DNA from: Alphaproteobacteria bacterium
GTDB lineage: Bacteria > Pseudomonadota > Alphaproteobacteria > UBA8366 > Aestuariispiraceae
Assembly: GCA_033344895.1 (NCBI GenBank)
Contig: JAWPMN010000001.1
Span: 372,001-436,000 of the forward strand
Reading direction: 5' to 3'
Length of the DNA stretch: 64,000 nucleotides
The position numbers and the translations under genes were made by a program. Under the pieces are notes generated by a model that saw only the letters and a list, made by a program, of their open reading frames with translations, searched no databases and was not told where the DNA came from. This document shows positions 27,644 through 54,005 of the stretch, in pieces; position 1 is the first letter of the stretch, and the number at the start of each line of letters is the position of its first letter.

Positions 27644-27716
27644 GCTGACCTAGGCTTTCCGGATCAATCACCGTGCCGTCCGCTTCATCGGAGGGCCAAT
27701 GGAGTGGGAGGCTAAG

Positions 27717-28796
27717 ATGACGTATGGGAAAATGACGGCGCTGCTGGCGTCGGCGGCGTTTCTGGGGGCGGTTTCGACACCGGTTCAGGCCGAGACGCTG
27801 CGGCTGCTGACCTGGGGCTCGTATGCGCCGGAGGAAGTGATCCAGAAATTCGAGGAGAAATACCCCGATATCGATGTCGAGGTGACCTTTTCGAACAACG
27901 AGGAAATGATCGCCAAGCTGCGGGCGACCGGCGGGGCGGGGTTCGACCTGGCCCAGCCGAGCCATGACCGCATCTATGCGGCGCAACTGGAATACAATAT
28001 CTACAAGCCGATGGACCTGTCGAAGATCGACACCTCGATCTATGAGCAGAAGCTGCTGGACGGGGTCAAGGCGAACACGACCATCGACGGCGAGGTCTAT
28101 TCGGTCCCCCACCAATGGGGCACGTCCGGCCTGATGGCGGACAAGACCAAGGCGCCGGACTTCAAGAGCTGGGGCGATCTGTGCGACCCGCAATACAAGG
28201 GCCGGACGTCGATGCGCCTGAAGCGCACGATCCTGCTGGGCACGGCCTTCGCCATGGGCGAGGACCCGTTCGCGGCCTATGCCGACCTGGACAAGTATCA
28301 GGAGATCCTGGACAAGGTCGTCGACAAGCTGATCGCGTGCAAGGACAACGTGAAGGCCTATTGGAAGGGCGGGGACGATCTGTCGGCGCTGATGCTGTCG
28401 GGTGAGATCGTGGCGTCGGAAACGTGGGATTCCACGGCCTTCCGCCTGTACAGCCAGAATCCGAACATCGTCTTCGTGCCGCCGGAAACCGGTGCGCTGG
28501 CCTGGATCGACACCTTCACCCTGCCGCGCAAGGGCAAGGCGGATGACGCGGCCTACAAGTGGATCAACTTCGTCATGCAGCCGGAAATCGTCGAGCTGAT
28601 GTCCGCCAGCAGCGGCGGCACCTCGGCCCGCAAGGGCGGGCGCGACCTGCTGCCGGCCGACAAGAAGGCGGCGGTCAACGCGGCCTTCACGGACGAGGAC
28701 ATCGCCAATCTGCAGTTCTTCGCCAACATCCCCCCGGGCGTGGAGGATATGGAAGGCAAGGCGCTGGAGAAGATCAAGGCGGCGACGGGCGGCTGA
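27717..28796 (+). CDS. Periplasmic substrate-binding protein, spermidine/putrescine (PotD) type
   Basis: A 359-residue extracellular solute-binding protein. The start at 27717 is supported by GGGAGG seven bases upstream; the earlier in-frame ATG at 27699 lacks one. A signal peptide ends near A-Q-A (about residue 26). The mature start E-T-L-R-L-L-T-W-G-S-Y-A-P-E-E-V-I-Q-K-F-E is characteristic of PotD/PotF relatives. The protein heads an ABC importer operon and is followed by an intrinsic terminator before the ATPase gene, which would give extra binding protein. The ligand may be a polyamine, a quaternary amine or an opine; sequence does not decide. Confidence 0.92.
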   Translation: MTYGKMTALLASAAFLGAVSTPVQAETLRLLTWGSYAPEEVIQKFEEKYPDIDVEVTFSNNEEMIAKLRATGGAGFDLAQPSHDRIYAAQLEYNIYKPMDLSKIDTSIYEQKLLDGVKANTTIDGEVYSVPHQWGTSGLMADKTKAPDFKSWGDLCDPQYKGRTSMRLKRTILLGTAFAMGEDPFAAYADLDKYQEILDKVVDKLIACKDNVKAYWKGGDDLSALMLSGEIVASETWDSTAFRLYSQNPNIVFVPPETGALAWIDTFTLPRKGKADDAAYKWINFVMQPEIVELMSASSGGTSARKGGRDLLPADKKAAVNAAFTDEDIANLQFFANIPPGVEDMEGKALEKIKAATGG

Positions 28797-28829
28797 CGCC
28801 CGGCGTCCCGGACTTCGGTCCCAAACTCG

Positions 28830-28871
28830 GGGAAGCCGCCCCACTCCTTGCGGCGGCTTCCCTTTTCGTTT
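28830..28871 (+). terminator. Intra-operon terminator after the binding-protein gene
   Basis: GGGAAGCCGCC (28830-28840) pairs perfectly with GGCGGCTTCCC (28852-28862) around an 11-base loop and is followed by TTTTCGTTT. It sits between the binding-protein gene and the ATPase gene of the same importer. Partial read-through here would explain the excess of binding protein usual in ABC importers. Confidence 0.75.
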
Positions 28872-28918
28872 CTCAATAATTCCCGGACTTTTCTTCCGGC
28901 CATGAATTGGGTGTCAGC

Positions 28919-30079
28919 ATGACCACCGATCCGATCCACGATTTGGAATGCGCGAATATTTCCAAGAATTTCGGCGCGGTGCGCGCCGTCGATGATGTGT
29001 CCTTTGAAATTCCCAGCGGATCGTTCTTCTCCATCCTGGGTCCGTCCGGCTGCGGCAAGACCACGCTGATGCGCATGATCGCGGGGTTCGAGACGCCCAG
29101 CGCCGGCGACATCCGGATCAAGGGACGGTCGGTCGTCTCCCTGGCCCCGAACCGGCGCAACGTGAAGATGGTGTTCCAGCATCTGGCCCTGTTCCCGATG
29201 ATGAATGTCTATGAGAACATCGCCTATGGCCTGCGCTGCAGCGGGACGCCGAAGGCCGATATCCCCGGCAAGGTCCAGAATGTGCTGGAGCGTATCGCCC
29301 TGCCCGATGTCGGCGAACGCGAAATCCATCAGCTGTCCGGCGGCCAGAAGCAGCGCATCGCCATCGCGCGCTGCATGGTGCTGGACCCGGATGTGCTGCT
29401 GCTGGACGAGCCGCTGGGCGCGCTGGACCTGAAGCTGCGCGAGGCGATGAAGATCGAACTGAAACTGCTGCAGCATCAGTTCAACACCACCTTCGTCTAC
29501 ATCACCCACGATCAGTCGGAAGCCCTGGTCATGTCGGACCGGGTCGCGGTGATGAACAACGGCCGCTTCGAACAGATCGGCCGACCGCAGGAGCTGTATC
29601 ACGCCCCGACCAGCGCCTTCGTCGCGGGCTTCGTGGGCGACAGCAACCGCTGGGCCGGGCGCGTGGTCGACGCCGATGCGCAATCCGCCAAGATCGAGAC
29701 CGCGGACGGGCTGGTCACCGAATGCGTCCAGCGCGCGGCGCACCGGCTGAACGGCGGCGACGCGGTCGAACTGTTCGTGCGGCCGGAATTCATCACCGTC
29801 GGCGGCAAGAACGGTGCGGCGTCGGGCGGCAATACCCTGACCGGCATCGTCGACAGCATCCTGTTCAACGGCGCGAACAGCCGCGTTCTGGTGCGCACGG
29901 CGTCCAACGCGCTGATCGAGGCCGATGTGACCCTGACCGGCGGCGATGCCGACTTCCAGGAGGGCGATACGGTCGCGCTGAACTGGTCGGCGGAAAACGC
30001 CATGAGTTTCCGCACCGAAGCCGCCGCGGGCCATGTGAATTCGGGCGGTCAGAACGCGGGCCGGGAGAATGCGGCATGA
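28919..30079 (+). CDS. ABC importer ATP-binding protein, PotA type
   Basis: A 386-residue ABC ATPase with a C-terminal TOBE regulatory domain. Walker A is G-P-S-G-C-G-K-T-T near residue 41, the signature L-S-G-G-Q-K-Q-R-I-A-I-A-R near 138, and Walker B is V-L-L-L-D-E-P-L-G-A-L-D near 158, followed by the switch region T-H-D-Q-S-E-A-L. The ATG at 28919 is used; a TTG twelve bases earlier is an alternative. The stop overlaps the first permease (ATGA). It powers uptake by the permease pair that follows. Confidence 0.94.
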   Translation: MTTDPIHDLECANISKNFGAVRAVDDVSFEIPSGSFFSILGPSGCGKTTLMRMIAGFETPSAGDIRIKGRSVVSLAPNRRNVKMVFQHLALFPMMNVYENIAYGLRCSGTPKADIPGKVQNVLERIALPDVGEREIHQLSGGQKQRIAIARCMVLDPDVLLLDEPLGALDLKLREAMKIELKLLQHQFNTTFVYITHDQSEALVMSDRVAVMNNGRFEQIGRPQELYHAPTSAFVAGFVGDSNRWAGRVVDADAQSAKIETADGLVTECVQRAAHRLNGGDAVELFVRPEFITVGGKNGAASGGNTLTGIVDSILFNGANSRVLVRTASNALIEADVTLTGGDADFQEGDTVALNWSAENAMSFRTEAAAGHVNSGGQNAGRENAA

Positions 30080-30945
30080 GCCACCGCGACACCCGGCGCC
30101 TGATGCTGATCCTGCTCTTCGCGCCCTTCGCCCTGTGGATCCTGCTGCTGATTGTGCTGCCGCATATCGGCATGGGCTATCTGGCCCTGCGGGAGAAGAT
30201 CGGGCCGCGGGAGTACGAATTCGGCTTCGGCAATTTCGTCGAATTCGCGATGGAGCCGATTTACTGGAACACGCTGCTGCGCACCGGCAGCATGTCGCTG
30301 CTGGTCACCGCGCTGGCGCTGCTGGTCGGCTTTCCCATCGCCTATTACATCGCCAAGATTGCCGGCCATCGGACGCGCGGCGCGATGTTCCTGCTGTGTC
30401 TGATCCCGCTCTGGGTCAGCGACCTGATCCGCGCCTTCGGCTGGATCCTGCTGCTGCGCGAAACGGGAGTCGTGTCTTCCGGGCTGCAGGCCATGGGCCT
30501 GATCGATGCGCCGGTGGAACTGCTCTACAACGACGTCACCGTGGTGATCGGCCTGGTCTACACCGTCATGCTGTTCATGATCGTGCCCCTGGTCTCGACC
30601 CTGGACGGCATGGACAATTCGATGATCGAAGCCGGGTACAATCTGGGCGGCAGCGGGTTGACCGTGCTGCGCCGGATCATCATCCCCTATGCCATGCCGG
30701 GCATCGTGTCGGGCTGCATCATCGTCTTCATGCTGACGGCGGGCAGCTATCTGACGCCGATCCTGCTGGGTGGCAAGAATTCCAGCTGGTTCACCGAGAT
30801 GATCTACGAACAGTTCATCACCCGCTACAACTGGGAGGCCGGCGCGACCTTCGGCTTCCTGCTGCTGGCCTTCACCTCGCTGGTCGTCTGGCTGGGCCTC
30901 AAGATTTCGCGCCAGACCCTGGCCGGCACCGTGGCGCGGAGCTGA
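30076..30945 (+). CDS. ABC importer permease, PotB type
   Basis: A 289-residue inner-membrane permease with about six helices, the first at residues 8-32. The EAA loop that contacts the ATPase is visible as M-I-E-A-G-Y-N-L-G-G-S-G-L-T-V-L-R-R-I-I-I-P. The sequence G-S-Y-L-T-P-I-L-L-G-G near the end is typical of PotB permeases of polyamine-class importers. The start overlaps the ATPase stop, and the second permease begins four bases after its stop codon. Confidence 0.94.
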   Translation: MSHRDTRRLMLILLFAPFALWILLLIVLPHIGMGYLALREKIGPREYEFGFGNFVEFAMEPIYWNTLLRTGSMSLLVTALALLVGFPIAYYIAKIAGHRTRGAMFLLCLIPLWVSDLIRAFGWILLLRETGVVSSGLQAMGLIDAPVELLYNDVTVVIGLVYTVMLFMIVPLVSTLDGMDNSMIEAGYNLGGSGLTVLRRIIIPYAMPGIVSGCIIVFMLTAGSYLTPILLGGKNSSWFTEMIYEQFITRYNWEAGATFGFLLLAFTSLVVWLGLKISRQTLAGTVARS

Positions 30946-30949
30946 GCCG

Positions 30950-31810
30950 ATGATGAAAGCACGCTCCAACTGGGCCTTCCTTCTCGGCTACCGCTTCTAT
31001 GTCGCGGCCTTCTTCGTCTTCCTGGCCGCCCCCCTGATCGCGGCGGGCAGCTTCGCCTTCAACGATTCCCTGTTCCCGGCGCTGCCCTGGCAGGGCTTCA
31101 CGCTGGACTGGTTCTTCAACGACACGGAACCGAAACTGGGCATGTTCCATGACCGGCGATTGCTGCGCGGGCTCTATTACTCCTTCGTAATCGCCTGCGG
31201 CGTGTCGGCGCTGTCGGTCTTCGTCGGCACCTGCAACGCATTCCTGTTCGTGCGCTCGGACCTGCCGGCGAAGAATTTCTTCTACATCGTGATGGTCGTG
31301 CCGCTGGTCATTCCGGGGGTGATCCTGGGCATCTCGATCCTCGCCATGGCCAGCCAGTTCGCCAACAGCCTGGAAGAAGCCCACGGAATCGAACTGGAAT
31401 TTCTGCGCCCCGGGCTGCCTCTGGTCATCCTGGGCCAGTTTTCCTTCATCGCCACGATCACCTCGCTGGTCATCACGGCTCGGCTGCGCAAGTTCGATGC
31501 GACGATGGAGGAGGCGGCGTATAACCTGGGCGCGGGGCGGCTGCGCGTGCTCCTGACGATCACCCTGCCCTTCCTCCGGCCGGCGATGATCGCCGCCGGG
31601 ATCGTGGCCTTCCTGGTTTCCTTCGAGAACTTCAACACGACTCTTTTCCTGGTCGGTTCCGAATCGCCGTTGACGATCACGATGTTCGATCGTATGGCGA
31701 AAGTCGGATCGACGCCGGTCCTGAATGCGGTTTCGTTTTTCCTCATGATCGGTTCCGGCGCTCTCGCACTCGTATCGGTGCTGGTGCAACGCGACAGGAC
31801 GAAAGTCTGA
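30950..31810 (+). CDS. ABC importer permease, PotC type
   Basis: A 286-residue permease, partner of the upstream PotB-type protein. Helices are visible at about 13-35, 80-105, 110-135, 150-175, 200-225 and 255-280. The EAA loop reads M-E-E-A-A-Y-N-L-G-A-G-R-L-R-V-L-L-T-I-T-L-P. The later F-E-N-F-N-T-T-L-F-L-V-G segment is typical of PotC-like proteins. It lies immediately before a GMC oxidoreductase gene (seven bases between), so uptake and oxidation of the same compound are probably linked. Confidence 0.93.
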   Translation: MMKARSNWAFLLGYRFYVAAFFVFLAAPLIAAGSFAFNDSLFPALPWQGFTLDWFFNDTEPKLGMFHDRRLLRGLYYSFVIACGVSALSVFVGTCNAFLFVRSDLPAKNFFYIVMVVPLVIPGVILGISILAMASQFANSLEEAHGIELEFLRPGLPLVILGQFSFIATITSLVITARLRKFDATMEEAAYNLGAGRLRVLLTITLPFLRPAMIAAGIVAFLVSFENFNTTLFLVGSESPLTITMFDRMAKVGSTPVLNAVSFFLMIGSGALALVSVLVQRDRTKV

Positions 31811-31817
31811 CCCCTCC

Positions 31818-33431
31818 ATGGAAACCTATGACTATGTGATCGTCGGCGCGGGCTCCGCCGGCTGCGTTCTGGCGAACCGGCTGACCCAGGACGGCAAGAG
31901 CAAGGTTCTGCTGATCGAGGCTGGGCCCGACGACCGCCGGTTCTGGATTCAGGTGCCGATCGGCTACGGCAAGTCCTTCTACGATCCGAAGGTCAACTGG
32001 ATGTACACGACGGAACCGGTGCCGTCGCTGAACAACCGGACCAGCTACTGGCCGCGCGGCCGGGTTCTGGGCGGGTCCAGCTCGATCAACGCGATGGTCT
32101 ATATCCGCGGCCAGGCGCAGGATTACGAGGACTGGCGCGCGGCGGGCAATCCCGGCTGGGGCTGGGACGACATCCTGCCGATCTACAAGCGCATGGAAAG
32201 CCACGCCGGGGGCGAGAGCGAATACCATGGCGGGTCCGGCCCGCTGCATGTCTATGCGCCGGGCGAACGCCTGCATCCCAGTTGCGAACATTTCTTCCGC
32301 GCCGGGGAGGAAATGGGCCTGCCGCGCAATCCGGATTTCAACGGCGAAAGCCAGCGCGGCGTCGGCCATTACCAGGTCACGGTGCGTGACGGCATGCGCA
32401 TGTCCGCCGCCCGCGCCTATCTGTGGCCCGCGCGCAAACGGCCCAATCTGCGCATCGTCACCCATGCCGAAGCGCGGCGCATCCGCTTTGAAGGCAAGCG
32501 CGCCGCGGGTGTGGAATATGTGAAGGGCGGCAAGTCCCATCTGGTCCGTGCATCGCGCGAAGTCATTCTTTCCGGCGGTTCGGTCAATTCGCCCAAACTT
32601 CTGATGCTGTCGGGCGTCGGTGCCGCCGCCGATCTGGCACAGCATGACATTCAGCCCGTCCACGACCTGCCCGCCGTCGGCCGAAACCTGCTGGACCACC
32701 TGGATTGCGGGGTCATCTACAAATCCAAGGTGCCGACCCTGAACGACCAGCTTTATCCGCTGTGGGGCAAGCTGTGGGCCGGGATGCAGTATGTGCTGGC
32801 GCGCCGGGGCCCGTTGTCGCTCAGCGTCAATCACGGCGGCGGATTCTTCAGTGTCGGACCGGACCAGACGCGCCCGAACATCCAGCTCTACTTCTCGCCC
32901 CTCAGCTACACGCGCGTGCCGGCGGGTACCCGCGCGTTGATGAGCCCGGACCCCTATTCCGCCTTCAACCTCAGCATCTCGCCCTGCCGGCCGACCAGCC
33001 GAGGACAGGTCAGCCTCCGACCGGGGGCCCCGCATGGCGCACCGGTCATCGACCCCAACTATCTGGCGACCGAACATGACCGGTTCGAGATTATCGAAGG
33101 CATGCGTTTCCTGCTGAAGTTCGGCCGCACCGAAGCGATGCGGAAGATCGTCGAGGCGCCGGTCGACCCCTTCCCCAAAGGCGAGGACGACGAGACCCTG
33201 ATGGACTATATCCGCGATCGTGCCGTGACCGTCTTTCATCCGGTCAGCACGTGCCGGATGGGCCCGGCCGGCCCGGACACCGTGGTCGGCCCGGATCTGA
33301 AGGTACATGGACTGGTGGGTTTGCGCGTCGCCGATGCGTCGATCTTCCCGTCCCTAACCTCAGGCAACACCAACGCCCCATCGATCATGGTCGGCGAGAA
33401 GGCCAGCGATCTGATCCTGAGCGACCGTTAG
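31818..33431 (+). CDS. GMC-family FAD oxidoreductase (choline dehydrogenase-like)
   Basis: A 537-residue flavoprotein of the glucose-methanol-choline family, which oxidises primary or secondary alcohols. It has the FAD-binding V-G-A-G-S-A-G-C-V-L-A-N-R-L near residue 10, the first GMC signature R-G-R-V-L-G-G-S-S-S-I-N-A around 82, the second signature G-S-V-N-S-P-K-L-L-M-L-S-G-V-G near 255, and the catalytic His in V-F-H-P-V-S-T-C-R-M-G near 473. It resembles BetA and related alcohol dehydrogenases, but choline specificity is not established because no betaine aldehyde dehydrogenase is adjacent. It is the last gene of the importer operon. Confidence 0.9.
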   Translation: METYDYVIVGAGSAGCVLANRLTQDGKSKVLLIEAGPDDRRFWIQVPIGYGKSFYDPKVNWMYTTEPVPSLNNRTSYWPRGRVLGGSSSINAMVYIRGQAQDYEDWRAAGNPGWGWDDILPIYKRMESHAGGESEYHGGSGPLHVYAPGERLHPSCEHFFRAGEEMGLPRNPDFNGESQRGVGHYQVTVRDGMRMSAARAYLWPARKRPNLRIVTHAEARRIRFEGKRAAGVEYVKGGKSHLVRASREVILSGGSVNSPKLLMLSGVGAAADLAQHDIQPVHDLPAVGRNLLDHLDCGVIYKSKVPTLNDQLYPLWGKLWAGMQYVLARRGPLSLSVNHGGGFFSVGPDQTRPNIQLYFSPLSYTRVPAGTRALMSPDPYSAFNLSISPCRPTSRGQVSLRPGAPHGAPVIDPNYLATEHDRFEIIEGMRFLLKFGRTEAMRKIVEAPVDPFPKGEDDETLMDYIRDRAVTVFHPVSTCRMGPAGPDTVVGPDLKVHGLVGLRVADASIFPSLTSGNTNAPSIMVGEKASDLILSDR

Positions 33432-45804: not shown

Positions 45805-46749
45805 TTAGCCGGAACGGTTTCGATGCTTCGCATTCGCGGTCTGCATGCCGACGATCAGGGCGTCGCGTTCGGCCATCAGGTCGGTCATGGCGCGCGCGCC
45901 CTGCTCCGCTTCGATTCCGGCGCGCAGGGCAGCGATGGTGTCGGCATTCAGCTCGACATCCTTCATGGATTCCCACCAGCGATTGAAGCTGGGTTCATAC
46001 CGGCTGCAGAACTCGCCCAGGCCGAGATCTCCGGCGCCCAGATGGAACAGCATATGCGGTCCCATCGCCGCCCAGCGCAGACCGGGCCCGGCCCAGATCG
46101 CCTTGTCGACATCCTCGACGGAGGCCACACCTTCGACAACGAGGGAAATCGCCTCTCGCCACAGCGCGGCCTGAAGCCGATTGGCGGCATGGCCGGGCAC
46201 TTCGCGGTGGAGGCGGATCGTCACCTTGCCGCATTCGGCATAGAAGGCCTCCGCGCGCTCCAGGACATCATCATCGGTCCGCTCATTCGCCAACAATTCG
46301 ACCAGTGGGATCAGATGCGGAGGATTGAAGGGATGGCCCAGCACCAGGCGCCCCGGATTCCGCCAGCCCTTTTGCATTTCGGAAACCATCAGCCCGGATG
46401 CGGAGGAAGCCACCACCGCATCGGCGTCCAACACCGGCTCGATCTCAGCAAAAAGCGCGTGCTTGATCTCGATCCGCTCCGGCACGCTTTCCTGGACGAA
46501 AAACGTCCCTTCGACAGCCTCGGCGGCGGAGGCGTGGAACGTCATCGACGCCGGCGTGTCGGCCGATGGCAGGCCCAACGCGACCAGCGCCGGCTGCGCC
46601 CTTTCGGCATAGGCGCGAATTTGGGCTTCCGCCCCTTCGGCCGGATCGAATACGCGGACCGGATAGCCGGTTGCGGTGAACAGGCTGGCCCAGCTGGCGC
46701 CGATCACCCCACCGCCCAGAATGGCGACGGACTTGGACTTCTGGCTCAT
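45805..46749 (-). CDS. L-carnitine dehydrogenase-like 3-hydroxyacyl-CoA dehydrogenase family enzyme
   Basis: A 314-residue NAD-dependent dehydrogenase. The Rossmann motif is V-A-I-L-G-G-G-V-I-G-A-S-W near residue 8, the catalytic region contains A-S-S-A-S-G-L and L-G-H-P-F-N-P-P-H with the active histidine, and the C-terminal domain has G-P-G-L-R-W-A-A-M-G-P, a sequence shared by carnitine dehydrogenases and lambda-crystallin relatives. It would oxidise the 3-hydroxy group of L-carnitine to 3-dehydrocarnitine. It is the last gene of a six-gene minus-strand operon that also contains a BKACE enzyme, the known next step of this route. Substrate identity is inferred. Confidence 0.82.
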   Translation of the reverse strand: MSQKSKSVAILGGGVIGASWASLFTATGYPVRVFDPAEGAEAQIRAYAERAQPALVALGLPSADTPASMTFHASAAEAVEGTFFVQESVPERIEIKHALFAEIEPVLDADAVVASSASGLMVSEMQKGWRNPGRLVLGHPFNPPHLIPLVELLANERTDDDVLERAEAFYAECGKVTIRLHREVPGHAANRLQAALWREAISLVVEGVASVEDVDKAIWAGPGLRWAAMGPHMLFHLGAGDLGLGEFCSRYEPSFNRWWESMKDVELNADTIAALRAGIEAEQGARAMTDLMAERDALIVGMQTANAKHRNRSG

Positions 46750-46768
46750 TTGGTGGTTTCCCTTCGAT

Positions 46769-47545
46769 CTAGAACAGCGCCGGGTTCAGTGGTGACGCGG
46801 CGGTCAGGCCGCCATCGGCGGTCAGCATGCTGCCGGTCATGAAATCGGATTCGTCCGAGGCCAGCCACACGGCGACCTTAGCGATATCCTCCGGCTTGCC
46901 GAAGCGGCGGGACGGATGACGCGCCAAAGCATCCTGCTTCGCCCGATCCGGATCGGTGGCAACGGCGAAACCGGCCTCCGCCATTTCCGTCATGATCCAG
47001 CCGGGACAGATCGCGTTACAGCGGATTCCCTGCGGACCGTGGTCGACGGCAATCGACCGGGTCAGCCCATGTACGAAAGCCTTGCTCGCGTTGTAGAGCG
47101 CCATCGCGGGGTCCGCGACACTGGCGGAGATCGATCCCAGATTGACGATCGCGCCGCCCCCATTGGCGGCCATTACCGGGATCGCCGCACGGCACATGTT
47201 GAAAACGCCCCGCGCATTCGCGCCCATCAGCAGGTCCCAGTCCGCGTCGGTGCTTTCGGTGACCGTCTTCTCGATCTGCACGCCGGCATTGTTGACCAGA
47301 ATGCCGGGCGTGCCGAACCGTTCCGCCGTTTCCGCAACCAGTCGCTCACAATCGGCCGAGATGGAAACGTCGATGGTGGTCCAGCCCACCGCAGGGTCCA
47401 GCCCGTCCGGTCGCGCGCCGCGCCCGCAGGTCATGACGGCGGCACCGGCCGCAAGGTATGAGGACACGATCGCAGCCCCGATGCCGCGACCGCCCCCCGT
47501 CACGATCGCCGTCTTCCCGGCGAGAAGGGTCGATGCGGTGCTCAT
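46769..47545 (-). CDS. SDR-family oxidoreductase
   Basis: A 258-residue short-chain dehydrogenase/reductase. It has the G-G-G-R-G-I-G cofactor motif near residue 18, N-N-A-G in the middle, the catalytic Ser in N-L-G-S-I-S-A and the Tyr/Lys pair in A-L-Y-N-A-S-K-A. The N-terminal sequence is classic-type. The start at 47545 overlaps the aldehyde dehydrogenase stop (ATGA). It probably oxidises a hydroxyl intermediate in the quaternary-amine operon; the substrate is unknown. Confidence 0.88.
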
Positions 47546-48975
47546 GCGTGGGCCACCATGACATGACGGACGGCGGTGTAGGCATCCAGCGCATAGACGG
47601 ACATGTCGCAACCGGTCCCGGACCCGCGCATTGCCGCCCAGGGCATCTCCGCCGTTGCGACGCCATGGGTATTGATCCAGGTGAAGCCGAAGCGCAATCG
47701 GCTGGCGACGGCCATGGCCCGACCGACATCGGCTGTCCAGACCGAGGAGGCGAGACCGTAGATGCTGTCATTGGCCCAAGCGATGGCCTGTTCCGCATCG
47801 TCGAACGGCGTGACCGTTACCACCGGCCCGAAGATTTCCTGCTGCACGGCCTCACTGGATTGCGCAGGGCCGGCCAGGACCGTCGGGGCGACATAGAAAC
47901 CTTCCCCCTGTGGTGCGGCTCCGCCCAGAACATCGACGCCGTCCGCGGCGCCCGCCCGGTCGATGAAGCCCTGCACACGAATGCGGTGACCGGCACTGAT
48001 CAGTGGGCCCATCTCGACATCGGCATCCAGACGGGCACCAACCTTGATGTCCGCCACCGCACTGCCGAGATCGGCGACGAAGTTCTCGAACCGCGCTTTC
48101 GGCACATAGAGACGGGACGGCTGGGCGCAGTCCTGACCGGCGTTGAAATAGCTGCCGCCGCGCACTGTCTCCAGGACGGCCTCCAGATCGGCGTCATCGA
48201 AAACCAGCACAGGGGCCTTGCCGCCCAATTCCAGATGAGTATGCCGGATCTTCCGCGACGCCGCAGCCATGGCACGTTTCCCGGTTTCCGGCGAACCGGT
48301 GATCGAGATACCCTCCATGGCCGGATGGTTGATCAGCGCCTCACCGACCTGCGGGCCGCGCCCGTGGACTACATTCACGACGCCCTTCGGGAAGATATCG
48401 GCCAGATCGTCCGCCAACCGCATCAGGGACAATGGCGTCAGTTCCGACGGCTTCAAGACAATGGTGCATCCGGCTGCCAGGGCGGGGGCCAGTTTCCACG
48501 ACGCCATCATCAACGGATAGTTCCAGGGGGCAATCGCCGCAATCGGCCCGATCGGATCGCGCCGGATCATGGAGGTATGCCCGGCGACATACTCGCCGGC
48601 GGCAGACCCGGTCATGGTACGCGCGGCACCGGCGAAGAAGCGAAAGACATCACTGCACAGCGGCAATTCCTCGCTTTCCGTCAGCGCGCGGGGCTTGCCG
48701 CAATTCAGGCTTTCCAGATCGGCCAGCTCGGCCGCCGCCGCATCGATCCGATCGGCAAGGGCCAGCAGCATCGTTGCGCGCTCACCCGGCGGTGTACGCG
48801 ACCAGCCTTCAAAGGCCACCTGCGCTGCGCGGGCCGCCGCATCGACCTGCTCCCCGGTTGCCTCTGCCAGTGACAGGATGGTCTCCCCGGTGCACGGGTC
48901 GACGACCGGCAGCGCCTCGCCGCCCCCGTCCACACGCTCCCCATCGATCAGCATGCGCGGATTTCCAATCTTCAT
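47542..48975 (-). CDS. Aldehyde dehydrogenase, aminobutyraldehyde/betaine aldehyde type
   Basis: A 477-residue NAD(P)-dependent aldehyde dehydrogenase. The general base is in H-L-E-L-G-G-K-A-P near residue 249 and the nucleophile in N-A-G-Q-D-C-A near 280. The sequence [14 protein letters not shown] resembles gamma-aminobutyraldehyde dehydrogenases (PatD type). In this operon a trimethylaminobutyraldehyde, betaine aldehyde or malic semialdehyde substrate is plausible, but not proven. It overlaps the following SDR gene by four bases and lies 28 bases after the BKACE gene. Confidence 0.88.
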
Positions 48976-49003
48976 TCCCTGCCCTCCCGTTGGCGTCGTC
49001 GAG

Positions 49004-49933
49004 TCAGAATGCGACCGCGTCGGCGCCCTTCAGCCCCAGACGGCGACGTGCCTCTTCCGGCGTCGCGACTTCGCGGCCCAGCGCCTCGACAATCGTGCGG
49101 ATCTTTCGGACCTGATCGGCGTTGCTGCGCGCCAGTTCGCCCTTGCCGATGTAAAGGCTGTCTTCGAGCCCGACCCGCAGATTCCCGCCCAGCATCGCGC
49201 TCTGGGTCGCGAAATTCATCTGGTGGCGACCGGCCGCCAGCACGGACCATTCGAACTGGTCGCCGAACAACCGCGTCGCGACCTTTTCCAGATGGATCAG
49301 ATTGTCCAGATCCGCGCCCATACCGCCCATGATCCCGAACACCATCTGGATGAAGAAGGGCGGCTTCACCATGCCCTGATCCACGAACCAGGCCAGATTG
49401 TAGAGGTGCCCCAGGTCGTAGCACTCGAACTCGAACCGTGTGCCGTGCCCCTCCCCCAACGTCTTGAGGATGTATTCGATGTCTTCGAACGTGTTCTTGA
49501 AGATGAAATCCTTCGTCATCTCCAGAAACGCCGGCTCCCATTCGTGCTGCCAGTCCTGATATTTCTGCAGCAATGGAAACAGTCCGAAATTCAACGACCC
49601 GACATTCAGCGACGCCATTTCCGGTGAGGCACGATCGGCGGCGCGCAGACGCTCCTCCCGCGTCATGCCCAGCCCGCCACCAGTCGATATGTTTATGACG
49701 GCATCTGTGGACTGCTTGATCACCGGCAGGAACTCCATGAACCGGTCCGGGCTGGGATCCGGCTTTCCGGTTTCCGGGTCGCGGGCATGCAAGTGGATTA
49801 TGCTGGCACCGGCCTCCGCCGCGTCGATCGATTGCCGCGCGATATCCTGCGGCGTGATCGGCAGATGGGGCGACATGGTCGGTGTGTGAATGCCGCCGGT
49901 CGGGGCACAGGTAATGATAACGGGTTTTGTCAT
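49004..49933 (-). CDS. BKACE-family beta-keto acid cleavage enzyme (dehydrocarnitine-type)
   Basis: A 309-residue enzyme of the 3-keto-5-aminohexanoate cleavage (BKACE/DUF849) family, which reacts a beta-keto acid with acetyl-CoA to give acetoacetate and a new CoA ester. The zinc histidines are in H-L-H-A-R-D-P near residue 48, and [10 protein letters not shown] marks the active site. Family members acting on 3-dehydrocarnitine give betainyl-CoA. The pairing with a carnitine-dehydrogenase-like gene in the same operon supports that substrate. It lies ten bases after an SDR stop codon. Confidence 0.9.
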
Positions 49934-49943
49934 GGCGGCTTCC

Positions 49944-50699
49944 TTACAGCTTCATCTGCTGAACCTGGGCGCTGAGGCCGCCATCCAGAACCCAGAGTTG
50001 CCCGCTGGCATAGCGCGCTTCGGAAGAGGCCAGCCAGTTGACCAGATTGGCGATATCCTCTGGCGTGCCATAGCGGCGCATGGGGTGCACGTCGCGCACG
50101 GCCTGCTGCAAGGTATCGATGTCGCCGTGATCTCGGAAAAAGCTCTGCAGCATCGGGGTGTCGATGTAACCGGGGCAGATCGCATTGACGCGGATACCTT
50201 CCGGCCCGTGATCGCAGGCCATGGCCTTGGTCAGGGCATGGACCGCGCCCTTGGTCGCGCAATAGGCGGCCAGCCCCGGATCGGCGATGAACCCGTCATA
50301 GGATCCGAAATTGATGATACCGGCATCGCTACCGCGGCGCAGTCGGGGCAGCGCCGCCTTCGACATCAGGAACATCGCGGTCACGTTGATCGCGAAAATC
50401 CGGTTCCATTCCGCCAGCGTGGTTTCCTCGATCGTCTTTTCGATCTCGATGCCGGCAGCATTGACCAGCACATCCAGCGAGTCTCCGGGCAATCCATCGA
50501 AGAAGGCGGTGACCGCCCCCTCGTCGGTTACGTCCAGCGCATGAACCGTGACCCCGTCCGGCACCGGCTTGTCCAGTCCGGCAATATCACAGGCATGAAC
50601 CGTGGCCCCTTCTCGGGCGAAGCGGGCACAGACCGCCGCGCCGATGCCGCCACATCCGCCGGTCACGACGGCAGTCTTTTGCTCCAGCGCCCCCATCAC
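49944..50699 (-). CDS. SDR-family oxidoreductase
   Basis: A 251-residue classical SDR with cofactor motif G-G-C-G-G-I-G-A-A near residue 14, N-A-A-G in the middle, catalytic Ser in N-F-G-S-Y-D-G and the Tyr/Lys pair in A-A-Y-C-A-T-K-G. It starts inside the end of the Rieske oxygenase gene (four-base ATGA overlap), so the two are made together. Its substrate is probably an alcohol intermediate of the same pathway; this is inference. Confidence 0.88.
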   Translation of the reverse strand: MMGALEQKTAVVTGGCGGIGAAVCARFAREGATVHACDIAGLDKPVPDGVTVHALDVTDEGAVTAFFDGLPGDSLDVLVNAAGIEIEKTIEETTLAEWNRIFAINVTAMFLMSKAALPRLRRGSDAGIINFGSYDGFIADPGLAAYCATKGAVHALTKAMACDHGPEGIRVNAICPGYIDTPMLQSFFRDHGDIDTLQQAVRDVHPMRRYGTPEDIANLVNWLASSEARYASGQLWVLDGGLSAQVQQMKL

Positions 50700-51847
50700 G
50701 CAGCCCCCTGGCGATAGGCATCCAGAAGCAATCCATGGAAGTGATGCAGCGCATGTTCCGACAGTCCGGATCCGTTCGGGTCCGACACGATCCAGCCCTG
50801 ATCAAAAGCGGGGGTTTCCATGCCGCGCTGAACCGACTCGCACAGGGCTATGTCCTCCGGCTGCAGCACGTCGTCGATATAACGGATCGCGTCCAGTTCG
50901 GCGGCGTTCGGCTCCGGCTCTTGGAGATAGAAATCGTAGGTTTCGATCGTCCGGTCCACATCGACCGGGATCACGTTCAGGATCAGGAAGTTGCCGCGTC
51001 CGGGATAGCGCATCATGCAGGTGTTCGGCCACAGCCACCATACGGCGTGGTCCTTCACCGTCGCGCCCTCCACCGAATAGGCGCTGTTGGCGGACTTGCC
51101 GGCCTCGGCCATGTGACTGGAATAGATGCCATGGGTGGTGACCTTGTAGGTCTCCATATCCACCAACGTGACAAAGTCCTTATGGGCGGTATGGCAGTGA
51201 TAGCATTCCAGGAAGTTGTCGATGACATTCTTCCAGTTCGACCTGATATCGTAGGTCAGTCGATGGGCAAAGGTCAGGCGCTCCACATCCGGCGCATAAT
51301 GACGGATTTCACCGGCCAGGTCGCCAGTCTGTTCCGCCAGTGACGCCGCATCCGGATCCAGATTGACGTAAACGAAGCCGCAGAACTCCTCGACCTGAAC
51401 CTGGGACAGGCAGATATCTTCGGTCTTGAAGCCTTCCAGCCCCCCGGTTTCGCGCGCGGCACGCAACTTGCCGGCCAGATCGTAGGACCAGGCGTGATAG
51501 GGACAGGTGATCATCCGCGCCTTGCCCGACCCGCTGAGCAGTTGGTGCGCCCGGTGCTTGCAGACATTGTAGAAGGCACGCAAGGCGCCCTGACGGTCGC
51601 GCACAACGGCAATGGGGGACCCGGCGATATCGGCGGTCACATAGCTTCCAGGATCCCGCACAGATTCGGCGTGACACACCCATTGCCAGGACTTCGCAAA
51701 AACCGTCCGGCGCTCATGATCGAACCATTTGCGGCGGGTATAGGCATCCGCATGCAGAGACTTTGTGCTCTGTGGGTTATCCGTATAGCCCGTGCCGATC
51801 CGGCGCAGGTCTTCCGCACCGATATCGATATCCGGCATTGCGCTCAT
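50696..51847 (-). CDS. Rieske non-haem iron oxygenase, quaternary-ammonium (CntA/GbcA-like) type
   Basis: A 383-residue oxygenase alpha subunit. The Rieske cluster ligands are C-K-H near residue 95 and C-P-Y-H near 113. The mononuclear iron site is in D-N-F-L-E-C-Y-H-C-H-T-A-H near 212-224, with the third ligand expected in Q-P-E-D-I-A-L-C-E. Together with the S-G-S-G-K motif between the Rieske pairs, this matches the quaternary-ammonium oxygenase group (carnitine, glycine betaine and stachydrine oxygenases). It should hydroxylate a methyl or backbone carbon of a quaternary amine, releasing formaldehyde or trimethylamine. The reductase gene is not in the window. It is the first gene of the operon. 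Confidence 0.88.
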   Translation of the reverse strand: MSAMPDIDIGAEDLRRIGTGYTDNPQSTKSLHADAYTRRKWFDHERRTVFAKSWQWVCHAESVRDPGSYVTADIAGSPIAVVRDRQGALRAFYNVCKHRAHQLLSGSGKARMITCPYHAWSYDLAGKLRAARETGGLEGFKTEDICLSQVQVEEFCGFVYVNLDPDAASLAEQTGDLAGEIRHYAPDVERLTFAHRLTYDIRSNWKNVIDNFLECYHCHTAHKDFVTLVDMETYKVTTHGIYSSHMAEAGKSANSAYSVEGATVKDHAVWWLWPNTCMMRYPGRGNFLILNVIPVDVDRTIETYDFYLQEPEPNAAELDAIRYIDDVLQPEDIALCESVQRGMETPAFDQGWIVSDPNGSGLSEHALHHFHGLLLDAYRQGAA

Positions 51848-51968
51848 CGCCCAATTCTCCCGATCTGGGTATTGCAGGAACTGTCCGGAGGCCCTCCGGC
51901 ATCCGGAACGATGGGTTCAGAATAGGGGCAGCAAACCCCGCGCACCTAAATAAATTCGCCACCAATCT

Positions 51969-52973
51969 TCACTTTTTCGACGGCACCGGATGCATGGGCC
52001 AGGCGCGATACTCAAACGGGATGCGTCCTTCGATCCGGTCGCTGCGCGGGGTCGTCCGAAAACGGTCGCGATAGGCACGGGCAAAGTATTCCGCACTTTC
52101 AAAGCCGCAGGCCACCGCGACGGACAGGATGCTCATTTCAGTTTGCGTGATCAGCGACCGGCCGCGATCCAACCGGATGTTTCTGTAGTACTGAACCGGC
52201 GAGCACTTCGTATGCGACCGAAACAGCCGCGCCAACTGCCGCTGGGACAGTCCGATCGCATCGGCGATATCCGGAATTGCCAGCGGCACTTCCAGATTGG
52301 CCTCCATCAGCCGGATTGCCTCCCTCAGCGCATCCGGTGTGGTCTGACCGAAGGGGACACGGTTCGTCACGTTCTGCCTCTCGCCCGGCAGACGAATCCG
52401 GTCGTGCAGCACGTAGCGCGCGCAGGCATTCGCCAGTTCCGCGCCATGATCCCGCTCCAGGATGTGCAATGCCAAATCGGTCGACGCCGTCCCGCCCGCG
52501 CAGGTCAGGATCGCATTATGGGCGCAGATGAGTTCCTCCGTGCAGGTGATCTCGGGATAGACCTCCTGGAAGGAATCGATGTGCTCGTAATGGGTCGCAA
52601 CCTTGCCGCCGGTCAGCAATCCCGCGCGGGCCAGCAGGAAGGCCCCGGTGTCGATTCCGCAGATCCGGATGCCCCGGCGCCCCCAGCTCCGAATGGATGC
52701 CATCACGATTTCGCTGTCATAGAACCGTTCCGGCGTCCAGCTGGAGGAGACGACGCCTATGCCGGGTTCGAATGCCCCGACTTCCGACAGGGGCCGTACC
52801 GCCAATTGAACCCCATTGCTGGCCTTCTCATGATCGGCCGTCAGCGCGAACAGTTGCCACGTGTAGTGCGCCACGCCGCTCAGATAGTTGGCGGCACGGA
52901 AGGGGTCGATGAAGGACAGCGTCGCGGCTGCATTGAATCCGGGAACCACGATGACGGCAATCCGCTGGGTCAG
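51969..52973 (-). CDS. GlxA-family AraC-type regulator (CdhR-like), probable CTG start
   Basis: A regulator with an N-terminal DJ-1/class I amidotransferase-like domain (about 1-190) and a C-terminal AraC helix-turn-helix pair (about 235-320; I-A-D-A-I-G-L-S-Q-R-Q-L-A-R-L-F, V-A-C-G-F-E-S-A-E-Y-F). The lost nucleophile in I-D-T-G-A-F-L-L makes it a sensor. The usual first strand is missing if translation starts at GTG 52949; starting at CTG 52973 restores Q-R-I-A-V-I-V-V-P-G-F and sits six bases after a perfect GAGGAGGAG. CdhR, which controls carnitine dehydrogenase in Pseudomonas, is of this type, so it probably activates the operon starting at 51847. Confidence 0.85.
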   Translation of the reverse strand: MTQRIAVIVVPGFNAAATLSFIDPFRAANYLSGVAHYTWQLFALTADHEKASNGVQLAVRPLSEVGAFEPGIGVVSSSWTPERFYDSEIVMASIRSWGRRGIRICGIDTGAFLLARAGLLTGGKVATHYEHIDSFQEVYPEITCTEELICAHNAILTCAGGTASTDLALHILERDHGAELANACARYVLHDRIRLPGERQNVTNRVPFGQTTPDALREAIRLMEANLEVPLAIPDIADAIGLSQRQLARLFRSHTKCSPVQYYRNIRLDRGRSLITQTEMSILSVAVACGFESAEYFARAYRDRFRTTPRSDRIEGRIPFEYRAWPMHPVPSKK

Positions 52974-53113
52974 GGCGCACTCCTCCTCGACACATGCAGC
53001 GATGCCTCAGTATCGCGCCTTTCCGAGCGGAAGGCCAGTAACCGCGCGTCGGCTGCGTTGCTTACGACACAAAATCCGAAGCGGTCTGGCTTGACAAGGA
53101 TCGGCCCGGAATT

Positions 53114-53142
53114 GTTTGCTGTGCGTCAGATGCACAGCAAAC
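53114..53142. promoter_or_regulatory. Perfect palindrome spanning the lysR start codon
   Basis: GTTTGCTGTGC (53114-53124) and GCACAGCAAAC (53132-53142) are perfect inverted 11-bp arms around a seven-base loop. The ATG of the LysR gene (53130-53132) lies in the loop and the first base of the right arm. A TTGACA (53091-53096) upstream is correctly placed for a promoter whose -10 lies inside the left arm. It could be an autoregulatory operator (LysR sites are T-N11-A type) or an mRNA hairpin hiding the start codon. Confidence 0.55.
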
Positions 53143-54005
53143 CACGCCCCTCCCTGGAGAGTTTTCAGGCGCTTCTCGCCGCTGCCGAAACCGGCTCTTT
53201 CTCAGCCGCGGCCGAGGCGCTGAACATTACGCACGGGTCGGTCAGCCGCCGCGTTTCAGCCGTCGAGGCGTGGGCGGGTCGGCCGATCTTTCGGCGGCAT
53301 GGACGCGGCGTTCAGGTGACCCTGGACGGTCAGTCGCTGATCGGTCGGATCGAACAGGCACTTGCCATGCTGGATGACAGTGCCCGGCTCGCCGAACGAG
53401 ACGACGAGCTCGACATTGTGCGGGTCAGCGTGGTTCCGTCCTTTGCCCGCCTGTGGCTGTTGCCCAACACCCCGGCCCTGGAAGGCATGCCCCAGGACCT
53501 CGTCCTGGACATCGACATCAGCTACCGCGTGGCCTCCCTGTCCGAATCCCGGATCGCCATCCGCCACGGACGCGGCCATTGGCCCGGCGTTTCTGTCACG
53601 CCGCTGTTTCAGGAAAGGCTGATACCCGTCGCAGCCCCGGACATTGCCGACAATCTGCGCGGCAGTTCCCCGGACCGGGTACTGGATTACCCGTTGATCC
53701 TGGATTCGCCGGACAGCATTTGGAAGATCTGGTTTGCCAGTTGTGATATCGATTATGCCCGGCGCCCGCAGGATCGGACCTTTGCCGATTACGACATGAC
53801 CCTGCTGGCGGCCGCTCAGGGTCTGGGCATTGCCATGTTGAGGGATCCATTCGGCCGGCAGGTTTGCGACAGCTACGGACTTCGCCCAGTTTCCGACCAT
53901 CAGGCGGACAATCTGGACCGCTTCTTCCTTGTCACCCGTCTGGGTCATCGCAGCGACGCCACGGAACGGCTGTCGGAAAGGCTTATTGCTCTCACCGCGT
54001 CCTGA
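53130..54005 (+). CDS. LysR-family transcriptional regulator
   Basis: A 291-residue LysR-type regulator. The helix-turn-helix spans about residues 6-64 (F-Q-A-L-L-A-A-A-E-T-G-S-F-S-A-A-A-E-A-L), followed by an effector domain with V-V-P-S-F-A-R-L-W-L-L-P near 95, a GcvA-like pattern. The ATG at 53130 is the first plausible start; no ribosome-binding site precedes it, and the promoter-like TTGACA ends only 33 bases upstream, so the mRNA may be leaderless. The long open frame upstream is read antisense through the GlxA-type gene and is not real. The target is unknown. Confidence 0.88.
   Translation: MHSKPRPSLESFQALLAAAETGSFSAAAEALNITHGSVSRRVSAVEAWAGRPIFRRHGRGVQVTLDGQSLIGRIEQALAMLDDSARLAERDDELDIVRVSVVPSFARLWLLPNTPALEGMPQDLVLDIDISYRVASLSESRIAIRHGRGHWPGVSVTPLFQERLIPVAAPDIADNLRGSSPDRVLDYPLILDSPDSIWKIWFASCDIDYARRPQDRTFADYDMTLLAAAQGLGIAMLRDPFGRQVCDSYGLRPVSDHQADNLDRFFLVTRLGHRSDATERLSERLIALTAS

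Follow-up and report, generated by a model that had tools for sequence, protein, structure and literature searches.

A candidate operon for a quaternary ammonium compound

We analysed a regulator gene and six adjoining enzyme genes (positions 45805–52973, all on the minus strand) in a 64,000-nucleotide stretch of DNA from an Alphaproteobacteria bacterium, here called the window (C1:372001–436000 of its 4.64 Mb, one-contig genome). Our tentative proposal, held at somewhat less than even confidence, is that they form a portable operon whose substrate is a hydroxylated quaternary ammonium compound, similar to carnitine or choline-O-sulfate but identical with neither; a Rieske oxygenase would cleave a C–N bond and a BKACE enzyme would lead to acetoacetate. 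Sea water, algae, plants and soil commonly contain quaternary amines and their sulfates, which supply bacterial cycles of carbon, nitrogen, sulfur and trimethylamine. The cassette mirrors the toolkits for carnitine and choline sulfate, with changes at specificity residues, which points to a substrate beyond the known routes. The gene set thus amounts to a variation on known quaternary-amine catabolism.

In order of transcription, the genes encode the regulator, the oxygenase, a short-chain dehydrogenase (SDR-B), the BKACE, an aldehyde dehydrogenase (ALDH), a further short-chain dehydrogenase (SDR-A) and a relative of L-carnitine dehydrogenase (the CDH-like enzyme). The enzyme genes occupy 45805–51847, overlapping by 4 bp at the closest and separated by 28 bp at the widest. 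The original prediction, made from the letters of this DNA, had described six tightly packed genes of these families forming a quaternary-amine-type operon with dehydrogenase and BKACE logic. The packing was confirmed, Pfam and NCBIfam returned the same families, and the operon type is supported by the evidence given below; taken as a whole, the interpretation in the original prediction is partly supported.

The six enzyme genes recur as a unit

Genome contigs were scanned with the oxygenase; 526 stretches matched, 514 were confirmed, and the best 80 named loci, with oxygenases 66–72% identical to that of the window, were retained. These loci come from Roseobacters, rhizobia, Labrys, Pseudomonas, Granulosicoccaceae and actinobacteria. 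Partner genes were counted up to 9.5 kb from the oxygenase using score thresholds that we set ourselves, and some of the contigs are truncated. All six enzyme genes were found together in 32 of the 80 loci. Counted singly, SDR-B accompanied the oxygenase in 72 loci, the CDH-like gene in 51, SDR-A in 48, the regulator in 47, the BKACE in 45, a choline-sulfatase-like gene in 42 and the ALDH in 34. A common order was oxygenase, sulfatase, SDR-B, BKACE, ALDH, SDR-A and CDH-like gene, with variants in which the sulfatase came first or was absent; the regulator lay at either end of the operon. The six-gene set is a conserved unit, beyond chance neighbourhood, and on its recurrence we rejected two accidentally neighbouring routes. 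The original prediction had left a choice between two bundled routes and some other quaternary amine; bundling is weakened by these counts, and the evidence favours the other quaternary amine.

Shorter loci were also seen, with the oxygenase and SDR-B alone (13/80) or together with a sulfatase (4/80), and in six loci the oxygenase had no enzyme partner. Eleven of the 17 short loci without dehydrogenase or BKACE have at least 6 kb of sequence on both flanks and are therefore genuine short forms; the remaining ones may be cut.

The cassette is carried by Roseobacters, rhizobia, Pseudomonas and, in the shorter form, actinobacterial genomes, and also by plasmids, the oxygenase being present at 63–67% identity on 10 of 29 matched plasmid records. 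On a plasmid of Pseudomonas sp. MPC6, typed as conjugative, the operon extends into genes for a reductase of the PDR/VanB kind, a thioesterase and a binding protein of choline type. Within the class to which the window belongs, only 5 of 387 sampled genomes gave an oxygenase match at E ≤ 1e-120, including the window's own genome and one congener, so the distribution there is patchy. The neighbours in 15 loci, mostly actinobacterial and inspected by eye, gave no clue to the substrate.

No description of this gene set was found in searches of the open-access literature, several of which addressed side questions such as choline sulfatase structure, homarine and dehydrocarnitine (subscription journals lay mostly beyond the search), nor did the annotated product names of the operon parts give a match together. 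Plasmids L166, L167 and L168 bear the public labels aminobutyraldehyde dehydrogenase and 3-keto-5-aminohexanoate cleavage protein, with choline-sulfatase (betC) in L167 and L168. Such labels of the operon parts may mislead pathway reconstruction.

Pocket residues of the Rieske oxygenase

The oxygenase (50696–51847; Pfam Rieske and Ring_hydroxyl_A) is a Rieske non-heme iron oxygenase whose closest solved relative is CntA (6y8j, 270.6 bits); it is 39–41% identical to E. coli and Klebsiella matches, one of them annotated YeaW. With the CntA/CntB (YeaW/YeaX) system of group Va it shares the fold family, the ECYHC motif, the Asp323 ligand, Tyr225, Tyr295 and an aromatic residue at position 203; its own Phe212, Tyr234 and Tyr304 align with CntA Tyr203, Tyr225 and Tyr295. 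We then compared these positions across an alignment of 87 rows, in which the window is present twice (as itself and as locus L001). The pocket residue and the nearby cysteine pair that mark group Va were found throughout (Phe at the Tyr203 position in 87/87 rows, both cysteines in 87/87), with Tyr225 kept in 87/87 rows and Tyr295 in 81/87. The complete CntA pocket (Y203, Y225, F258, N270, Y295, Y315, F319) is not preserved: Y203 is conservatively replaced, and four other residues differ from CntA, with Phe258 changed to His in 86/87 rows, Asn270 to Met in 80/87, Tyr315 to Leu or Ile in 83/87 and Phe319 to Leu in 87/87.

According to PMC7948474, CntA Tyr203 holds the ammonium group, the Y203F variant of CntA is active, group Vb demethylases carry Asn at this position, and choline monooxygenases belong to group Va. 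The ammonium binding mode of the operon oxygenase looks CntA-like, in a pocket that is remodelled and probably roomier. The original prediction had called the enzyme 'CntA/GbcA type'. The CntA part of this label stands and the GbcA part falls, given the Phe in every row and a score of 139.5 bits on the NCBIfam GbcA model against a cut-off of 670. GbcA and Stc2 are likewise Rieske oxygenases acting on quaternary amines, but as group Vb demethylases they have Asn where Phe is found here, and on this ground we rejected demethylation of their type.

The window had been said to hold neither an oxygenase reductase nor a thioesterase, and this holds: tblastn searches of the window with the reductase, ferredoxin reductase and ferredoxin of relatives, and with two of their thioesterases, gave no match at E ≤ 1e-3. 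The operon thus differs from CntA/CntB in having no CntB-like reductase in the window. Among the 80 loci, 9 have a match to a reductase or ferredoxin probe near the oxygenase and 5 have a thioesterase, in L077 on the opposite strand. The window's own genome contains two good PDR-type homologues, at C1:561361 and C1:156950; because these adjoin other Rieske matches (560664 and 154531), the oxygenase is likely to be served by a shared reductase.

Other CntA-class Rieske oxygenases occur in the same genome. At C1:776000–789000 (L131), an enzyme 34% identical to the operon oxygenase adjoins the gene of a GMC-type oxidoreductase, recognized by eye, and that of a regulator sharing 34% identity with the operon regulator, which suggests a further quaternary-amine-like locus. 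A third oxygenase, 36% identical, lies at C1:469000–482000 (L130); its neighbours, identified by eye, are an amino-acid-type ABC transporter, a gene of the enolase superfamily and one that resembles dimethylglycine/sarcosine dehydrogenase genes, a set reminiscent of proline-betaine loci.

Carnitine-type genes lie elsewhere in the genome

The CDH-like enzyme (45805–46749; Pfam 3HCDH_N and 3HCDH) is an unfused relative of L-carnitine dehydrogenase with a 3-hydroxyacyl-CoA-dehydrogenase fold. It falls below the cut-offs of both carnitine dehydrogenase models, scoring 236.9 bits on NF005471 (cut-off 414) and 242.8 bits on NF005716 (cut-off 592). In a FastTree tree of 52 operon rows (some genomes appearing twice) and 27 others, with the operon label assigned by genome position, the operon dehydrogenases formed one clade apart from the others with a support of 1.0, or 0.984 when one further paralogue, L125, was placed on the operon side.

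A second locus in the window's own genome, L128, has a dehydrogenase that scores 451.7 bits on NF005471, above the cut-off. Its regulator and dehydrogenase are each 36% identical to those of the operon, and its BKACE 32% (155 bits); inspection by eye also pointed to genes there for an acyl-CoA dehydrogenase and a CoA-ligase-like enzyme. We extended the comparison to 25 operon-carrying genomes, our own pick for the surveys of carnitine dehydrogenases and sulfatases, with the window's own genome included. A carnitine 3-dehydrogenase above the 592-bit cut-off was present in 18 of these, and six of the other seven, again including the window's own genome, had a second homologue scoring higher than the operon enzyme (376–404 bits; two of the matches read through a stop).

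Because true carnitine-type genes sit elsewhere in its own genome, the operon is probably not a carnitine route. The original prediction had fitted the dehydrogenase and BKACE to carnitine; we rejected carnitine as the substrate on account of this separate locus. The operon resembles the route of L-carnitine dehydrogenase, dehydrocarnitine-cleaving BKACE and betainyl-CoA thioesterase in its enzyme classes, its related regulator and the thioesterase that a few relatives carry close to the oxygenase. It differs from that route in a dehydrogenase that forms its own clade below the cut-offs, a BKACE of another subgroup, and the presence of the carnitine-type locus elsewhere.

The BKACE and the aldehyde dehydrogenase

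The BKACE (49004–49933) scores 359.7 bits on Pfam PF05853 against a threshold of 24.8 bits, and His47, His49 and Glu257, which we take to be the zinc ligands, are conserved in the alignment. It also passes NF053538, the 3,5-dioxohexanoate BKACE model, with 511.7 bits against a cut-off of 430, and is close to the solved proteins 3e02 (418.9 bits), 8rio (383 bits) and 3e49. It belongs to the same subgroup as BKACE15 of Paracoccus denitrificans (8rio/8rip/9hnf), with which it aligns over the full length, including a loop at about 117–141. Four BKACEs from carnitine-type loci do not have this loop, and they match the operon enzyme at 31–32% identity and 152–161 bits, which does not place it with the dehydrocarnitine-cleaving enzymes.

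BKACE15 is described in PMC11961710 as accepting uncharged beta-keto acids and as having an unknown physiological role; its genomic context is said there to suggest aromatic degradation, and differs in this from the context of the operon. If the preference for uncharged acids holds here, the ammonium group would be gone before the BKACE step. Early loss of the ammonium would also fit CntA-like C–N cleavage and the loci reduced to the oxygenase and SDR-B.

The ALDH (47542–48975) passes the aminobutyraldehyde dehydrogenase subfamily model NF010000 (675.5 bits against a cut-off of 615) and falls below the equivalog TIGR03374 (612.3 bits against 909.3). Its closest solved relative is 1wnb (567.9 bits).

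A sulfatase partner in relatives

The sulfatase that recurs beside the oxygenase of relatives is absent from the window, which kept it out of reach of the original prediction; a tblastn search of the window with it gave no match at E ≤ 1e-3. Three operon sulfatases were scanned, and all pass the choline-sulfatase model TIGR03417 (656–696 bits against 433.45); the closest solved proteins to one of them are choline sulfatases. In the Sinorhizobium choline sulfatase, according to PMC9063841, a hairpin with Trp129 and His145 binds choline, Trp142 lies in an aromatic tunnel, and Leu499 contacts the ammonium methyls.

To compare these positions, we counted residues in 43 operon-cluster sulfatases and 19 high-scoring ones. 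The W-X13-WYH ammonium clamp (W129/H145) was matched in 40 of the 43 operon-cluster sequences. Position 142 is Lys in 39 of them, Leu in 1 and unmatched in 3, against Trp in 17 of the 19 high-scoring sequences and Ser in 2, where the hairpin is one residue shorter. The lid position 499 is Trp in 42/43 and Leu in 1/43 of the operon sulfatases, against Leu in 18/19 of the high-scoring ones (1/19 unmatched). The operon-type enzymes of relatives resemble BetC of the betICBA choline-O-sulfate route in passing its model and keeping its ammonium clamp, and differ from it in the W142K and L499W changes that most of them carry and in their partners, namely the Rieske oxygenase, the SDRs and the BKACE. 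The lysine in the tunnel may act as a carboxylate clamp.

High-scoring choline sulfatases (837–911 bits) were found in 19 of the 25 operon genomes, beside a class scoring 681–709 bits that includes the operon copies. The six carriers without a canonical-class choline sulfatase are the window's own genome, G001, G004, G007, G013 and G071. A plain choline-sulfate route was rejected on the canonical sulfatases of the 19 genomes and the altered tunnel and lid, less firmly for the window's own genome. The only choline-sulfatase-family gene above the limit in that genome (699.3 bits) is 1 Mb away, at C1:1468383–1469894; it is 63% identical to the operon sulfatase of G007, a genome of the same family, and 49% identical to the main operon type.

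Proposed pathway and its alternatives

What the sequences show directly is the gene set, how well it is conserved, how it departs from the carnitine and choline-sulfate sets that many carriers possess, and its signature residues; the substrate and the order of steps we infer as follows. Where an operon-type sulfatase is present, it would first free the hydroxyl group from an O-sulfate ester. The oxygenase, as in CntA, would grip the ammonium group by a cation–pi contact with Phe212 and hydroxylate the carbon adjoining the nitrogen, so that the C–N bond breaks to give a tertiary amine and an aldehyde. SDR-B, the ALDH and SDR-A would oxidize the hydroxy-aldehyde that is left, yielding a beta-hydroxy acid, which the CDH-like enzyme, judging from its family, would convert to a beta-keto acid. 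The BKACE would then use acetyl-CoA to cleave this acid, giving acetoacetate and an acyl-CoA, from which a thioesterase may release the acid. Placing the oxygenase first fits the reduced loci, which keep it with SDR-B, with or without the sulfatase. A narrower version, which we consider unlikely, is that the substrate is a hydroxybetaine with both quaternary ammonium and carboxylate, common in the environment though hitherto unrecognized and often present as its O-sulfate; a pathway new to the literature would take it through desulfation, Rieske C–N cleavage and conversion to a beta-keto acid for the BKACE, with the tunnel lysine clamping the carboxylate.

Several observations weigh against the proposed C–N cleavage pathway. 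The three reductase and ferredoxin probes found no match within 9.5 kb in 71 of the 80 loci. The specificity of the operon BKACE is transferred by homology alone. The open-access literature held nothing relevant on named sulfated carnitine-like compounds. In the window's own genome, the lone sulfatase homologue lies apart from the operon and carries Leu, in place of the Lys and Trp, at the two signature positions, and no canonical-class choline sulfatase was found there; the homologue may be no more than a choline-sulfate enzyme, and the argument from the sulfatase possibly fails for this organism. The sulfate feed of the operon in this organism is therefore uncertain. The ALDH, being of the omega-aminoaldehyde kind, suits a route that retains the ammonium group, and the thioesterase of relatives is akin to the thioesterase half of carnitine 3-dehydrogenase (31–46% identity; the Pseudomonas MPC6 protein scores 112.3 bits), a kinship that would suit retention of the ammonium to the end. 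The binding protein beside the MPC6 operon scores above the cut-off of the choline-type model TIGR03414. Finally, one of the 25 operon genomes, G062, has the operon dehydrogenase alone.

The ALDH, the thioesterase and the binding protein bring in a possible, though rather unlikely, alternative. Here an omega-ammonio alcohol, or its sulfate, would be oxidized to a betaine acid by SDR and ALDH and beta-hydroxylated by the Rieske enzyme; the CDH-like enzyme and an SDR would make the beta-keto acid, the BKACE would yield acetoacetate and a betaine-CoA, and a thioesterase of the betainyl-CoA kind would free the betaine. Candidate substrates would be delta-valerobetaine, homocarnitine or their alcohols. 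Besides the ALDH subfamily, the thioesterase in 5 of the 80 loci and the binding protein, the kinship of the operon dehydrogenase with carnitine dehydrogenase favours it, and homocarnitine is a real metabolite (PMC11773067). It is opposed by the uncharged substrates of the characterized member of the BKACE subgroup, by the 32% identity to the carnitine-locus BKACE, and by the 17 loci that have oxygenase and SDR-B without dehydrogenase or BKACE, which would be odd for a mid-pathway hydroxylase.

A redundant or alternative carnitine system, in which the dehydrocarnitine/betainyl-CoA route is bundled with CntA-type cleavage, we regard as improbable. In its favour, the operon combines enzyme classes from both carnitine routes, its regulator scores best on the GbdR model, the CntA pocket residues Tyr225 and Tyr295 are retained, and no second homologue of carnitine dehydrogenase was seen in G062. 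Against this stand the separate carnitine-type loci in the window's own genome and in most of the carriers examined, the distance of the operon dehydrogenase and BKACE from the carnitine versions, and the recurring sulfatase partner. Very improbable is a choline-O-sulfate or choline route, with the sulfatase giving choline, the oxygenase acting as choline monooxygenase, the ALDH making glycine betaine, and the dehydrogenase and BKACE serving some other compound: the passing scores and conserved clamp of the operon sulfatases, the placing of choline monooxygenases in group Va (PMC7948474) and the six carriers without a canonical-class choline sulfatase speak for it, but 19 of the 25 genomes already have that enzyme, the operon-type sulfatase differs at tunnel and lid residues, and the SDRs, CDH-like enzyme and BKACE are left unexplained.

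Operon layout and neighbouring genes

The oxygenase gene overlaps that of SDR-B (49944–50699; Pfam adh_short_C2) by 4 bp, followed by gaps of 10 bp to the BKACE gene and 28 bp to the ALDH gene. The latter overlaps the gene for SDR-A (46769–47545; Pfam adh_short_C2), which starts at an ATG at 47545, by 4 bp, and 19 bp separate SDR-A from the CDH-like gene. The closest solved structures are dihydroanticapsin 7-dehydrogenase (5itv, 162.3 bits) for SDR-B and 3uxy (165.6 bits) for SDR-A.

The regulator gene (51969–52973; Pfam HTH_18 and DJ-1_PfpI) lies 121 bp upstream of the oxygenase gene. It encodes a GbdR-like AraC-type protein with a DJ-1/PfpI N-terminal domain and an AraC helix-turn-helix domain; GbdR is the top NCBIfam model, at 235.5 bits against a cut-off of 480. 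The first ATG, GTG or TTG codon is the GTG at 52949, and an in-frame CTG at 52973, the end given in the original prediction, is preceded by GGAGGAG. Gapped DNA words are common to 18–22 of 73 upstream stretches; in the window the match falls within coding sequence, at the end of the regulator gene upstream, and we claim no regulatory motif from them.

Divergent from the operon, a LysR-type regulator was recognized by eye at 53000–54005 (plus strand), within a longer open frame at 51990–54005. Between 54808 and 62365, Pfam identifies a MaoC-like hydratase and an HpcH/HpaI-type lyase, and inspection by eye added an acyl-CoA carboxylase pair along with an SDR and a CoA transferase of the CaiB type; we read this region as a putative organic-acid CoA route. 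On the plus strand at 27699–33431, genes for an ABC transporter, whose solute-binding protein was assigned by Pfam and whose ATPase and permeases were recognized by eye, are followed by a GMC oxidoreductase; this is possibly a second amine-uptake and oxidation cluster. Just before it, at 25387–27540 (plus strand), a 718-amino-acid KAP-family P-loop NTPase matches PifA of PADLOC (phage exclusion) with 376.9 bits. The GC content of this stretch is about 0.48, compared with 0.63 in the surroundings, and the PifA-like gene was therefore probably acquired horizontally.

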